Translations under genes and position numbers: made by a program
In this document: positions 14,585 to 25,692 of the stretch, piece after piece
How the letters are laid out: the number at the start of each line of letters is the position of its first letter
How positions within the stretch are numbered: position 1 is the first letter of the stretch
The notes under the pieces: model-generated
The model's input: only the letters and a program-made list of their open reading frames with translations
Told to the model about the DNA's origin: nothing
Database searches by the model: none
Assembly (NCBI GenBank): GCA_902783005.1
Contig: CACZPI010000073.1
Span: 1-36,550, forward strand
Source: an uncultured Ruminococcus sp.
GTDB lineage: Bacteria > Bacillota > Clostridia > Oscillospirales > Ruminococcaceae
Direction of reading: 5' to 3'
Length of the DNA: 36,550 bases

Positions 14585-16168
14585 ATGGCAAAACGAACGA
14601 TCAATCTCGATATGACCGCCTGCGACAACCGTGAAATGCGCATCGGTTCGATCACCTCTTGGGACGGCAGCGCCTCTGAGCTGGTGGAGGCCTCCGGCTA
14701 CGAGGAGCGCGGGAAGGGCGAAAAGCGAAGGGGCTGTGCAGGGGGAAAGGGTAAGCTATGTCAGCTGTGTGAGCTGAACATGCCGTTCTCCCAGCAGACC
14801 ATGTGTGCCAATGCGATCGTGGGGTGTCAGATCGGCAACATCACCGACTGCATCCTCATCGACCACGGCCCCATTGGCTGCTCGGCAAACCATGCACGGT
14901 TCAATTTAGGCTATAAAATGGGGCTGATCCGGAGAGGGAAGCCCGTGGAGAATCTGCGGATATTCAGCACGAATCTGAAGGAGCGGGACATGGTATTCGG
15001 TGCCAGTGACCGTCTCCGCCAGACGATACAGGATGCCTACGACCGCTACCATCCGAAGGCAATCTTCATTTCCATGAGCTGCTCTACTGCAATTATCGGG
15101 GAGGATATCGACAGCGTGGCAGACGAGAAAGAAGCGGAGCTTGGTATCCCGGTCGTACCGCTGCACTGTGAGGGCTTCCGCTCCAAGCATTGGAGCACCG
15201 GCTTCGACATTTCCCAGCATGGTGTCGTCCGTCAGATCGTCAAGCGCAACCCGAAGAAACAGCCCGATCTTATCAATATCGTTGCACTGTGGGGAACGGA
15301 TCATTTCACGGAAATGCTCAAACCCCTGGGACTGCGCGTCAATTACATGATCGACATGGCAAGCTATGATGAGCTGGCACAGGCATCCGAAGCCGTTGCG
15401 ACCGCGACATTCTGTCACACGCTTGGTTCCTACATGGCAACTGCACTGGAGGAGCATTTCGGTGTACCGCAGATCGATGCGCCGCAGCCCTATGGCATTG
15501 CTGCCACAGATGACTGGCTGCGTGCCATTGCGAAGGTCGTCGGGAAAGAGGAGGAGACCGAAGCCTACATCCAGTCAGAGCATGAACGCATCCAACCAAA
15601 GCTTGACGAGCTCCGGGAAAAGCTCAAAGGCTTGAACGGATTTGTGATGACCGGCTCTGCATACGCGCACGGCCTGATCTCTGTTCTGCGTGAGCTTGGA
15701 CTTGGCGTGGAAGGCTCCATTGTATTTCACCATGACCCGGTGTATGACAGCGGACATGAGCATCAGAACACGCTGAAATACCTTGTGGATACCTATGGGG
15801 ATATTCCGCATTTTACCGTCAGCAAAACACAGCCCTTCCAGCTCTATGCCATTCTGAAGCGTGTACGGACAGACTTTGTCATCATCCGTCACAACGGTCT
15901 GGCTCCGGTTGCCGCCAAACTCGGCATTCCGGCTCTGGCAATGGGTGATGAGCATTTTCCGGTCGGATATGACGGCATCATCCGTGTGGGAGAGATCCTG
16001 CTGGATATTGTTGCGAGAAAGAAATTCAATCAGGTGCTTTCCCGTCATACTGATTTAGGCTACACAGATTGGTGGCTCAGTCAGGAGGATCCATTCGTTC
16101 TGGCGAGAAAGCCGGAGCTGCTCGATGAACCGATCCATGAGGAGAATGGAGGGAAATACGATGGCTAA
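14585..16168 (+). CDS. Nitrogenase-like component 1 alpha subunit (NifD/MarD-like), copy 1
   Basis: A 527-residue NifD homologue, the alpha subunit of a reductase expected to hold a P-cluster with its beta partner and an active-site Fe-S cofactor. Candidate P-cluster cysteines are C74, C99 (DHGPIGC) and C166 (SMSCSTAIIGED). C277 (ATFCHTLGSYMA) matches the cofactor Cys of NifD. At the place of NifD His442 the protein reads FPVGYDG, so V460 replaces His. Further cysteines C51, C59, C62, C81 and C89 include a CxxC before CELNMPFSQQ. Context with MetA, MetY and sulfur promoters points to a methylthio-alkane-reductase-like enzyme rather than N2 fixation; the substrate is inferred. Start after GGAGAGG; overlaps K1 by 8 bases. 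Confidence 0.9.
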   Translation: MAKRTINLDMTACDNREMRIGSITSWDGSASELVEASGYEERGKGEKRRGCAGGKGKLCQLCELNMPFSQQTMCANAIVGCQIGNITDCILIDHGPIGCSANHARFNLGYKMGLIRRGKPVENLRIFSTNLKERDMVFGASDRLRQTIQDAYDRYHPKAIFISMSCSTAIIGEDIDSVADEKEAELGIPVVPLHCEGFRSKHWSTGFDISQHGVVRQIVKRNPKKQPDLINIVALWGTDHFTEMLKPLGLRVNYMIDMASYDELAQASEAVATATFCHTLGSYMATALEEHFGVPQIDAPQPYGIAATDDWLRAIAKVVGKEEETEAYIQSEHERIQPKLDELREKLKGLNGFVMTGSAYAHGLISVLRELGLGVEGSIVFHHDPVYDSGHEHQNTLKYLVDTYGDIPHFTVSKTQPFQLYAILKRVRTDFVIIRHNGLAPVAAKLGIPALAMGDEHFPVGYDGIIRVGEILLDIVARKKFNQVLSRHTDLGYTDWWLSQEDPFVLARKPELLDEPIHEENGGKYDG

Positions 16169-17501
16169 ACAGACAAAAAGCAACACCATTGTGCATCCGC
16201 GCTACGGCTGTGCCATTGGTGCAGCGTATACGGTCGCAGCAATTCCGGGCGGCGTTCCGATCGCGAACTGCGGACCGGGATGTGTGGACAAACAGTATTA
16301 TGGCCTCTCCGGCTCAAATGGGTTTCAAGGCTCCGGTGTGGCAAGCGGCGGTGATATGCCCAGTGTCAATTTCGGTGAAAACGAGGTCGTATTCGGCGGT
16401 GCAAAAAAGCTGGATGGGCTGATAAAATCTTCCCTGAAAATCGTTAAGGGCGATTTGTTTGTGATTCTTACCGGATGCTCCGGCGAGCTGATCGGCGACA
16501 ATGTAGAAAGTGTGGTCAAGACCTACAAACAGCAGGGCTACAACATCGTGTTTGCGGATACTGCCGGATTTAAGGGAAACAATCTGCGTGGCCATGAGAT
16601 CGTGGTGAAGGCGATCATTGACCAGTTTGTCGGTGACTATAAAGGCAGACGGCGTAAAAAGCTCATCAATCTTTGGACGGAGATACCATATTTCAATACC
16701 TTCTGGCGCGGCGATCTTGCCGAGCTGAAACGGGTGCTGGAGGGTGCCGGGTTTGAAGTCAATGTGTTCTTCGGCCCGCAGAGCAAGGGCATTTCTGAGT
16801 GGAAGAGCATTCCAAGGGCATCCTTTAATCTGGTCGTTTCGCCGTGGGTCGGTGTCAGCATTGCAAAGCACCTCGAAAAGAAATACGGACAGCCGTATCT
16901 GCATATTCCGGTGCTGCCCATCGGCGAGGAGGCGACCTCTGCTTTCCTGCGCCGGGTCGTGGAGTTTGCCGGTATCTCACCGGAAATAGCGGAGAAATTT
17001 ATTGCACGAGAGGCACATGAGTATTACTATTATCTGGAGCACTTTGCAGATTTCTTTGCAGAATACTGGTTCGGTCTGCCCTCCAAGTTTGCGGCAGTCG
17101 GGGACAGTGCCTATAACATTGCACTGACGAAATTTCTTGCCGATCAGGTGGGACTGATTCCGGTGCGGCAGATCATCACAGATGATCCCCCGGAGAAATT
17201 CCGGGAGAGTATTTCCGCTCTCTACCACGACTTAACAGAGGGTGTGGAGATCGACCCGGAATACATCGAGGACGGGTATCTGGTCGAGCAGGCGCTCTAT
17301 GATACGGATTTCGGTACTGGCGTTCCGCTGATTCTCGGCTCCTCGTGGGAGAAGGATGTTGCCGCAGAGCGCAAGGGGCTTCTCCTTGAGGTTGGTACAC
17401 CCGCCACGGAGGAGGTCGTCATCAACCGCAGCTATATCGGCTACCGGGGGGCATTGACGCTTCTTGAAAAAATTTATACCTCTACTGTCGGAGGAAAGTA
17501 A
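16161..17501 (+). CDS. Nitrogenase-like component 1 beta subunit (NifK/MarK-like), copy 1
   Basis: A 446-residue NifK homologue that would complete the alpha2beta2 enzyme with D1. The P-cluster positions are C17 (YGCAIGAAY, cf. NifK C-x-P-x-G-A), C41 (NCGPGC, with extra C37) and C106 (LTGCSGELIGDN). Start is the ATG at 16161, preceded by GGAGGG inside the D1 3' end; the in-frame ATG 12 codons upstream lacks a ribosome site. It is shorter than NifK of true nitrogenases (over 500 residues), as usual for nitrogenase-like proteins. A terminator follows, so D1-K1 is a two-gene operon. Confidence 0.9.
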   Translation: MAKQTKSNTIVHPRYGCAIGAAYTVAAIPGGVPIANCGPGCVDKQYYGLSGSNGFQGSGVASGGDMPSVNFGENEVVFGGAKKLDGLIKSSLKIVKGDLFVILTGCSGELIGDNVESVVKTYKQQGYNIVFADTAGFKGNNLRGHEIVVKAIIDQFVGDYKGRRRKKLINLWTEIPYFNTFWRGDLAELKRVLEGAGFEVNVFFGPQSKGISEWKSIPRASFNLVVSPWVGVSIAKHLEKKYGQPYLHIPVLPIGEEATSAFLRRVVEFAGISPEIAEKFIAREAHEYYYYLEHFADFFAEYWFGLPSKFAAVGDSAYNIALTKFLADQVGLIPVRQIITDDPPEKFRESISALYHDLTEGVEIDPEYIEDGYLVEQALYDTDFGTGVPLILGSSWEKDVAAERKGLLLEVGTPATEEVVINRSYIGYRGALTLLEKIYTSTVGGK

Positions 17502-17507
17502 ATTACG

Positions 17508-24603: not shown

Positions 24604-25437
24604 ATGGCTAAGGAAATCAGACAGATCGCAATTTACGGAAAGGGCGGCATCGGCAAGTCCACCACCACGCAGAACCTCACCGCAGGACTGGTGGAGCGCG
24701 GCAGCAAGGTCATGGTGGTCGGCTGCGATCCGAAAGCGGACTCAACACGTCTGCTGCTCGGCGGACTGGCACAGAAAACCGTACTCGATACCCTACGCGA
24801 TGCGGGCGAGGACATCGAGCTGGAGGACATCCTGAAGGAGGGCTTTAAAGGGACACGCTGCGTGGAATCCGGCGGCCCTGAGCCGGGTGTCGGCTGTGCC
24901 GGGCGCGGCATCATCACCTCGATCGGACTGCTGGAGCGTCTGGGCGCGTATACGGACGATCTGGATTATGTGTTCTATGATGTCCTCGGCGACGTGGTCT
25001 GCGGCGGCTTTGCAATGCCGATCCGTGAGGGCAAGGCAAAGGAAATTTATATTGTTGCATCCGGCGAGATGATGGCACTGTATGCGGCGAACAACATCTC
25101 CAAGGGTATCGCCCGTTATGCGAAGCAGGGCGGTGTGCGTCTGGGCGGCATCATCTGCAACAGCCGCAAGGTGGACCGCGAGTATGAGCTGGTTGAGGCG
25201 TTTGCCAAGGAGCTGGGGACGCAGCTCATCCACTTTGTTCCCCGTGACAATGAGGTGCAGCGTGCGGAGATTCGCAAAAAGACGGTTATCGAGCACAACC
25301 CCGAGGCACCACAGGCAGATGAATACCGTGAGCTTGCCCGGAAGATCGAGGAGAACACCTCTTTCGTCATCCCCAAGCCCCTGGCAACGGAGCGTTTGGA
25401 GGAAATTCTGCTCGAATTTGGGCTGCTGGATATCTGA
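24604..25437 (+). CDS. Nitrogenase iron protein-like reductase (NifH-like)
   Basis: A 277-residue NifH homologue that delivers electrons to component 1 with ATP hydrolysis. The P-loop is GKGGIGKS (residues 12-19), Switch-region DPKAD is at 43-47, and the [4Fe-4S] ligands are C99 (GVGCAGRG) and C134 ([10 protein letters not shown]). R102 is at the site ADP-ribosylated in true NifH. Overall very close to authentic NifH, unlike the divergent D and K subunits. It is the only copy in the window and must serve both pairs. Start after AAAGGAG, 112 bases after nifB. Confidence 0.94.
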
Positions 25438-25449
25438 TGGAGGTGTGCC

Positions 25450-25692
25450 GTGAAAATTGATATTGACAGGGTGGAGATCGTGACACCGGACACGCTCATC
25501 GGCGATCTGGTGCTGTGGCACCCGGAGGCTGCGCCGGTACTATATGCCATCGGTATGCATTGTCTCGGCTGTCCGGCATCCGGTGCGGAATCCATCAGGG
25601 AGGCTGCCGATGTCCACGGTGTGGATGCGGACGAGCTCGCGGCACTGCTGAATGAGCGGATCGCCGCCGACAAAGACAAGAAAATATCCTAA
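25450..25692 (+). CDS. DUF1858 small protein
   Basis: An 80-residue protein starting at GTG after GGAGGTG, 12 bases from nifH. Residues about 10-60 form a DUF1858 domain with the family motif IGMHCLGCPASGAES containing a CxxC. Such domains occur alone or fused to hybrid-cluster and other Fe-S proteins in anaerobes; function unknown. Its position at the end of the operon suggests a redox or cluster-handling role for the nitrogenase-like enzymes, which is inference. Confidence 0.85.
   Translation: MKIDIDRVEIVTPDTLIGDLVLWHPEAAPVLYAIGMHCLGCPASGAESIREAADVHGVDADELAALLNERIAADKDKKIS

Follow-up and report, generated by a model that had tools for sequence, protein, structure and literature searches.

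Two methylthio-alkane reductase-lineage pairs beside a single NifH-type reductase in an uncultured Ruminococcus: a possible modular system with linked importers

Rhodospirillum rubrum has one marBHDK set, encoding the nitrogenase-like enzyme methylthio-alkane reductase (MAR). This group IV-C system (9FMG, PMC12552129) is described as releasing methanethiol along with methane, ethylene or ethane. Heliophilum fasciatum carries several D/K-like pairs, NflDK1-5, proposed to depend on one nifH-like reductase, with one pair of MAR type (PMC9147875), and isethionate reductase, IsrBHDK, is a further nitrogenase-like C-S enzyme whose genes adjoin an Ssu-type importer (PMC11423573). NifH-type genes have also been reported from anaerobes not shown to fix nitrogen, as pseudo-nifH/T3-nifH of Clostridia (PMC8597730) and cluster III nifH of the gut (PMC4995403), for which the passages concerned state no function. 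Here we describe a 36,550-nucleotide stretch ("the window") of an uncultured Ruminococcus sp. (assembly GCA_902783005.1, contig CACZPI010000073.1), in which two complete pairs of MarD- and MarK-like genes (D/K), the relic of a third, and genes for NifX-, NifB-, NifH- and DUF1858-type proteins stand in a methionine/cysteine cluster. We favour, with some confidence, a modular MAR in which cassettes of importer and D/K pair would draw on a single NifB/NifX/NifH core and deliver methanethiol to MetY.

The locus resembles that of R. rubrum, as far as the latter is described in PMC12552129, in its D/K lineage, active-site and P-cluster residues, NifB-type maturase and sulfur/methionine setting, and differs in having a NifH-type instead of a MarH-type reductase, additional NifX-like and DUF1858 proteins, several D/K pairs and dedicated importers. 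Heliophilum differs in that its pairs belong to different Nfl groups (K proteins 53, 42, 41, 34 and 34% identical to K2 of the window), whereas the two or three pairs here are all of MAR lineage; its reductase, moreover, is described as MarH-like (PMC9147875). MAR, multi-pair genomes with a shared H protein, Isr and pseudo-nifH are thus already known, and a literature search, mostly of titles and abstracts, returned no account of multiple importer-linked MAR pairs or of a NifH-type reductase with MarDK. The source genome is a 2.87 Mb draft of 180 contigs, 88% complete, with rumen and gut Ruminococcus-like bacteria as close kin by shared loci. The methionine/cysteine cluster occupies positions 2521-25692 with all genes on one strand, and every catalytic and maturation gene named in an initial annotation of the stretch is present:

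14585..16168, + strand, D1, alpha subunit of MarD lineage, type 1 (PF00148)
16161..17501, + strand, K1, beta subunit of MarK lineage, type 1 (PF00148)
19719..21284, + strand, D2, alpha subunit of MarD lineage, type 2 (PF00148)
21284..22618, + strand, K2, beta subunit of MarK lineage, type 2 (PF00148)
22743..23256, + strand, relic third pair, a D start fused to a K tail in another frame
23269..23640, + strand, NifX-like cluster-binding protein (PF02579)
23616..24491, + strand, NifB-like radical SAM protein lacking a NifX domain (TIGR01290, 268 bits, cut-off 343.65)
24604..25437, + strand, NifH-type Fe protein, not MarH-type (TIGR01287, 462.8 bits, cut-off 394.35)
25450..25692, + strand, DUF1858 protein with CxxC (PF08984, TIGR03980)

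Sequence comparison places both pairs in the MAR lineage, bearing out the Mar-type assignment first proposed for them. The four proteins match PF00148 with E-values of 3e-62 to 2e-76; D1 scores 670 bits against the solved MarD of R. rubrum (9fmg chain A; next family 139) and K1 592 bits against MarK (9d9u chain C; next family 65). Identities to R. rubrum MarD are 57.1% for D1 and 56.5% for D2, those to MarK 57.5% for K1 and 53.5% for K2, and the two pairs are 70.2% (D) and 68.6% (K) identical to each other. Nine residues described as surrounding the [Fe8S9C] cluster of MAR, including the ligands C270 and H429 and a proposed R428-H429 hallmark (PMC12552129), are identical in D1 and D2 (C73, Q74, H194, W195, F199, C270, H375, R428 and H429; signature CQHWFCHRH; residue numbers are those of the paper, which match the printed chain). 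The full set occurs in 83 of the 91 D rows aligned, the other eight being mostly distant relatives. P-cluster cysteines are kept at D 66, 91 and 158 (present in 91/91 rows) and K 32, 56 and 121, the ligand assignment following homology order, and the position of the FeMoco histidine of NifD is V in D1, D2 and MarD alike.

Phylogeny was inferred after 13 of 103 D genes had been dropped as duplicates, with only pairs whose two genes are whole entering the concatenated D/K tree (85 rows). Relatives were the best 80 of 567 confirmed stretches, which makes their spread over phyla a lower bound. Against a NifDK/NifEN outgroup the MAR clade is firm (FastTree support 1.0; SH-aLRT 99 in a quick IQ-TREE run on 42 rows) and divides into clade A (R. 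rubrum, Magnetospirillum, Heliophilum, Paenibacillus) and its sister clade B (Clostridia, Ruminococcus, Fibrobacter, rumen Bacteroidales, Succinivibrio and others), the latter containing both window pairs. Bch and Cfb proteins were compared by family score instead of by tree (best 100.5 bits, cut-off 490.35), and neither comparison unsettled the Mar placement. With Heliophilum as the point of comparison for Nfa (group IV-A, NfaDK of Endomicrobium/Paenibacillus), its K proteins beside the MAR one reach no more than 42% identity to K2. Nine PF00148 matches in the 88%-complete genome include no NifEN by cut-off; beyond MAR and the relic they comprise four divergent proteins.

While the catalytic part is thus assigned to MAR, the reductase appears from its sequence to be of Nif type, and the Mar-type reductase implied by the initial annotation is not supported. 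Identity of the window H protein is 79.9% with the NifH of Clostridium pasteurianum against 51.5% with the MarH of R. rubrum; the protein scores 480 bits against 1cp2 (NifH) and 287 against 9fmg chain D (MarH), and passes the NCBI nifH equivalog cut-off; an H protein from clade A, that of Rhodoblastus, shows the reverse pattern (543 bits to MarH, 273 to NifH). In the H tree, clade B reductases group with NifH (support 98) and clade A reductases with MarH, apart from Selenomonas, in which a NifH-type H accompanies D/K of clade A, and one unsettled locus (L114). The opposite grouping is not formally rejected by tree (approximately unbiased (AU) test, p 0.065). The NifB-like protein scores 307 bits against NifB structures.

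Copy numbers suggest that one NifB/NifX/NifH core serves several pairs. Among 35 genomes chosen for carrying MAR-like genes, 11 (the source genome, G011, G018, G027, G063, G064, R. flavefaciens FD-1, XPD3002, C. polysaccharolyticum, G075 and Succinivibrio) have at least two K genes whose identity to K2 is 55% or higher. In every one of them these are accompanied by a single NifH-type gene at 75% or higher, which is fragmented in G011 and G018. NifB is single in most; G011 and G018 have two, G075 has two fragments and none was found in G027, while copy numbers in G011 are doubtful given its 5% estimated contamination. The source genome has one H and one B gene for both its pairs, in agreement with the single reductase initially proposed. 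In FD-1 the X-B-H genes (L141) and both pairs (L063, L132) lie on different contigs, and in the stretches fetched neither FD-1 nor RUI288 (L136) has a pair adjoining X-B-H; one RUI288 pair (L057) is on an 8.5 kb contig whose gene neighbours are only partly in view. The type 2 pairs of R. albus 8 and AR67 likewise stand alone, on a different contig from the only NifB and only close NifH.

Each pair also has a predicted importer, either nearby or elsewhere in the cluster:

6574..7743, + strand, SBP1, periplasmic-type substrate-binding protein (SBP) of the SsuA/TauA/NMT1 kind, 45% identical to SBP2
7756..8552, + strand, ATPase of importer 1 (ABC type), frame split near an A7 run at ~8035 (8035-8041)
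8549..9484, + strand, permease 1
17672..18772, + strand, SBP2 (PF09084; TIGR01728, 91.5 bits, below the cut-off of 163.5)
18772..19692, + strand, permease 2, without an ATPase of its own

As first proposed, one pair stands in an operon-like run with its importer (SBP2, permease 2, D2, K2). The type 2 D gene follows permease 2 in nine of nine cases, with SBP2 in view in eight (the ninth contig begins within the permease), and this linkage was seen in Ruminococcus species, a Lachnospiraceae metagenome-assembled genome and Succinivibrio. Type 1 directly follows permease 1 in three relatives (L030, L039 and L049), five genes separating importer 1 from D1 in the window. A type designated L36 has its own complete importer in both cases, type 3 is followed by SBP3 in five of six (the sixth reaches a contig end), and in FD-1 a further pair follows MetN/MetI/MetQ-like genes, which score under their cut-offs. 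Tree distances of D and SBP correlate (Mantel r 0.85, n=25; 0.89 for Ruminococcus, n=14; p 0.0001), in a test that treats orthologues as independent and with the window D1-SBP1 pairing, five genes apart, set by hand. More distant nitrogenase-like K/D pairs, at ~33% identity, were found in R. albus 8 (L139, 1425-8521), where a complete SBP-ATPase-permease set follows, and in L047 (1902-4677).

The pairs were initially called duplicated, which the trees do not support. Types 1 and 2 are each a clade (SH-aLRT 100); joining them as one clade costs 53 log units (p-AU 0.004), speaking against recent in-genome duplication, and a single clade of all Ruminococcus rows costs 290 log units and is rejected. 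By sequence, pairs 1 and 2 are old separate lineages. Fixed differences separate the two types at 103 of 499 positions in D and at 53 of 444 in K, and the most divergent four-residue stretch of D, in a ranking without significance test (score 15, next 13), is 94-97, just past P-cluster cysteine 91, which reads NHAR in type 1, RNPE in type 2 and GQVI in R. rubrum and is a candidate site of substrate choice. Each D/K pair forms a cassette with its own importer, and import and reduction are probably matched to different methylthio compounds.

Several observations weigh against this modular reading. The nine first-shell residues are identical in types 1, 2, 3, L36 and F, so that a difference in substrate, if there is one, must arise beyond the first shell, and at one locus (L135) an SBP3-like protein is paired with a D of another lineage. 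The ATPase of importer 1 is frameshifted and importer 2 has none; the importers of G011 (SBP1-permease 1) and of type 2 also come without their own. The SBPs belong to an SsuA/TauA-type family whose main known ligands are sulfonates and taurine, and no importer would be required for volatile thioethers; charged methylthio compounds and sulfonates are both possible ligands. Matches to solved structures were weak and mixed (taurine, pyrimidine, nitrate/bicarbonate) and gave no assignment. Because X-B-H adjoins a pair in the window and several relatives, sharing rests there on copy number; the sole NifB and sole close NifH of either R. albus strain adjoin a 43%-identical non-MAR pair, which that core may mainly serve, and no NifH or NifB was found in the draft genome of G061, which has a type 1 pair. 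Finally, the source genome carries one cluster with sulfite reductase-like and PAPS_reduct-family genes, plus a MetH-type gene, so that MAR would not be its sole sulfur route; it seems able to use sulfate too, which would make this locus a salvage route.

The strongest competing explanation, which we regard as rather unlikely, is that the pairs share the same MAR chemistry and are redundant, serving dosage or being recently gained spares, with importers that differ only through co-inheritance. The uniform first shell would fit it, as would the coming and going of pairs, seen in the relic, in a stop codon in the K gene of G011 (contig C179) and in pair sets that differ among species; against it stand the age of the types, each of which has stayed with its own importer in several families and phyla, and the fixed differences between them, including the stretch at D 94-97.

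The modular scheme can be set out stepwise from the part families, MAR residues, D/K and H lineages, importer-pair linkage, promoter element (below) and H and B copy numbers found here. From knowledge of these families we infer the reaction, the cluster, the sharing of B, X and H, the sulfur control and the substrate difference. NifB would build an [Fe8S9C]-type (eight-iron carbide) cluster, the NifX-like protein would probably carry it, and the single NifH-type Fe protein would give ATP-driven electrons to whichever D2K2 heterotetramer is made. SBP1 and permease 1 would import for pair 1, SBP2 and permease 2 for pair 2, and D/K would cut the C-S bond, freeing methanethiol, which MetA and MetY could join via O-acetylhomoserine into methionine. 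Methionine sulfur might then reach cysteine through MetK, the SAM methyltransferase (which could take off the methyl group), LuxS, MccB and CysK. The acetylating MetA, MetY and importers expected nearby were found (at 5248-6153, 2521-3810, and 6574-9484 and 17672-19692, respectively), and the sulfur genes flanking the pairs are:

2521..3810, + strand, MetY-type O-acetylhomoserine sulfhydrylase (TIGR01326, 621.6 bits, cut-off 495.1), the presumed acceptor of methanethiol
4312..5244, + strand, LysR-type regulator
5248..6153, + strand, homoserine O-acyltransferase MetA, acetyl type (best model NF047918, MetA_acetyl, 456.2 bits, just under the cut-off of 460.5; lower with TIGR01001, 439.3 bits, cut-off 495)
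9730..10704, + strand, SAM methyltransferase (PF04072/TIGR00027)
10717..11892, + strand, MetK
11889..12359, + strand, LuxS
12362..13522, + strand, MccB-like
13524..14435, + strand, CysK-like

The run from the methyltransferase to CysK (9730..14435) would be a methionine-to-cysteine route.

The modules of the cluster are fronted by a common element, CTCRAAA-N5-WATTGGACAAA followed by N15 and TATAAT, a pattern derived from five of the window's own sites (those starting at 6476, 9577, 14504, 17578 and 22665, which match exactly):

2194..2216, + strand, before MetY, one mismatch
6476..6498, + strand, before importer 1
9577..9599, + strand, before the methyltransferase-MetK-LuxS-MccB-CysK run
14504..14526, + strand, before pair 1 (-10 TATAAT ending at 14547)
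17578..17600, + strand, before importer 2 and pair 2
22665..22687, + strand, element of the relic pair, now fronting X-B-H

With up to three mismatches the window gives six matches, where 100 shuffles averaged 0.10, and with at most one mismatch the source genome has six sites, all inside the window. Across 23 genomes a looser pattern gave 78 matches at up to two mismatches versus 53 for the reversed control, and because of this noise only sites with at most one mismatch were counted, a level for which there is no control count. There were 34 such sites, in 13 of 15 MAR-bearing genomes (the relatives G061 and G074 had none) and in none of the eight genomes without a K match; judged by eye, 28 precede MAR modules, one precedes nothing evident and five precede other sulfur genes, namely MetY, the methyltransferase run, a MetNIQ-like importer and two glutamate-cysteine-ligase-like genes, the last in two relatives (L186, 950-2353, and L185). 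The sulfur promoter initially claimed for each pair therefore stands as a shared element, and that the element-bearing modules form one regulon answering to sulfur is something we can only infer. LysR genes 67-77% identical to that of the window adjoin D genes in several relatives, and LysR is a candidate regulator of the element. No Rfam family matched the window at gathering thresholds, which speaks against control by SAM or other known riboswitches. Two short frames might be leader peptides: MTMCSRNRMMCMCAMIPEPTVSRSFCMHIFG (4147-4242), rich in Met and Cys, lies upstream of a T-tailed hairpin (4268-4283) fronting LysR-MetA, with which it could form an attenuator, although the fold is not unusual (z-score -0.95) and this candidate was set aside; and a frame beginning MRKSCCCSKVQ (9654-9740), with three consecutive Cys codons behind the element of the methyltransferase run, is a possible cysteine leader that had no counterpart in the relatives scanned.

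The relic third pair retains its promoter element and first D codons (GTG at 22743, VAKKINLEI), fused in another frame to the final ~160 codons of a K gene (22768-23256). This K tail shares 84-91% identity with the R. flavefaciens-type K against 68% with K1, which excludes a copy of pair 1, pair 2 or type 3 (G008), and in R. flavefaciens the matching K type stands before X-B-H. The remnant would still supply X-B-H with a promoter element. From the present sequence an internal deletion would look the same as a misassembly, and a 180-contig draft with paralogous pairs, a classic source of misjoins, makes it conceivable that both relic and split ATPase are assembly errors in a metagenome bin and that the organism has a third intact pair; we judge this unlikely, the junction lying in otherwise clean sequence and the promoter and X-B-H order being as in R. 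flavefaciens.

An Isr-like sulfonate reductase, for which the SsuA-type importers would bring sulfonates and D/K would free sulfite, seems very improbable. The SBP family and permeases would suit it, Isr pairs such an enzyme with an Ssu-type importer, and the genome has a sulfite reductase-like gene. IsrD, however, is described as keeping one of the three P-cluster cysteines, the other two being absent, and IsrB as an unrelated, BciD-like radical SAM protein (PMC11423573), whereas all three cysteines are kept here and B is NifB-like; D/K are 54-58% identical to MarDK (the tree covered Mar, NifDK and NifEN sequences), and their companions are MetA and MetY instead of sulfite reductase. A nitrogenase functioning without NifEN, the case made for Endomicrobium and for Heliophilum NfaDK, is scarcely credible despite the 80% identity of H to C. 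pasteurianum NifH, the presence of NifB and NifX and the acetylene reduction described for purified MAR, given that D/K group with MarDK, that R. rubrum MAR is described as not reducing N2 (PMC12552129), that the FeMoco histidine is absent and the R428/H429 loop present, that PF00148 proteins of the 88%-complete genome are accounted for by MAR, the relic and four divergent proteins, and that the gene setting is one of sulfur metabolism.

The Nif-type reductase bears on the many rumen and gut genomes that carry nifH, yet live where nitrogen fixation is described as negligible (PMC6776011). Among 61 relatives, ten pass the nifH equivalog cut-off and all ten encode a Mar-like K, seven of the MAR clade and three (G014, G032 and G044) of a ~42%-identical neighbour lineage. 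An earlier study (PMC4995403) remarked that the NifD of Prevotella bryantii B14 has no FeMoco histidine, and retained it among candidate fixers; in this strain, now Segatella baroniae B14 under the same NCBI taxid, D has the full MAR residue set and no FeMoco histidine. At least one published gut nifH/NifD thus appears by sequence to be of MAR kind, and the sharing of a Nif-type reductase may explain why some gut bacteria have been taken for nitrogen fixers. A tentative extension is an interchangeable C-S reductase platform of gut and rumen, in which one nitrogenase-type NifB/NifX/NifH core both matures and drives changing MarDK-lineage enzymes, cassettes are gained by transfer with importer and element (as with the MetNIQ-like importer beside a pair in FD-1), importer identity reports the substrate, and much rumen and gut NifH, and some acetylene reduction, is sulfur salvage. 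If the modular reading is true, bacteria of the rumen that carry several MARs would be a source of methane, ethylene or ethane and of methionine sulfur, and natural pairs of different lineages and importers on one reductase, in cultured strains (R. flavefaciens FD-1, XPD3002, R. albus 8 and Succinivibrio dextrinosolvens DSM 3072), would make substrate choice directly testable.

Next to a HypF-like gene, the source genome also has two H-K-D triplets in tandem that belong to a divergent group of nitrogenase-like proteins (contig C81; locus L009, 8383-14662, - strand), with H ~49% identical to the window NifH and D/K at ~21-27%; all those tested are below every NCBIfam cut-off, and similar H genes occur in several MAR-less relatives. 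Within the window, an 86-residue lipoprotein-like protein with repeated CC motifs and no Pfam match lies behind MetA (6122-6382). No tRNA or tmRNA integration site was found in the window; towards its end lies an island of lower G+C (46%; 26521-36000) that holds a 908-residue frame without Pfam match, a type I system (HsdM and HsdS) and two AAA proteins (AAA_15, AAA_13).

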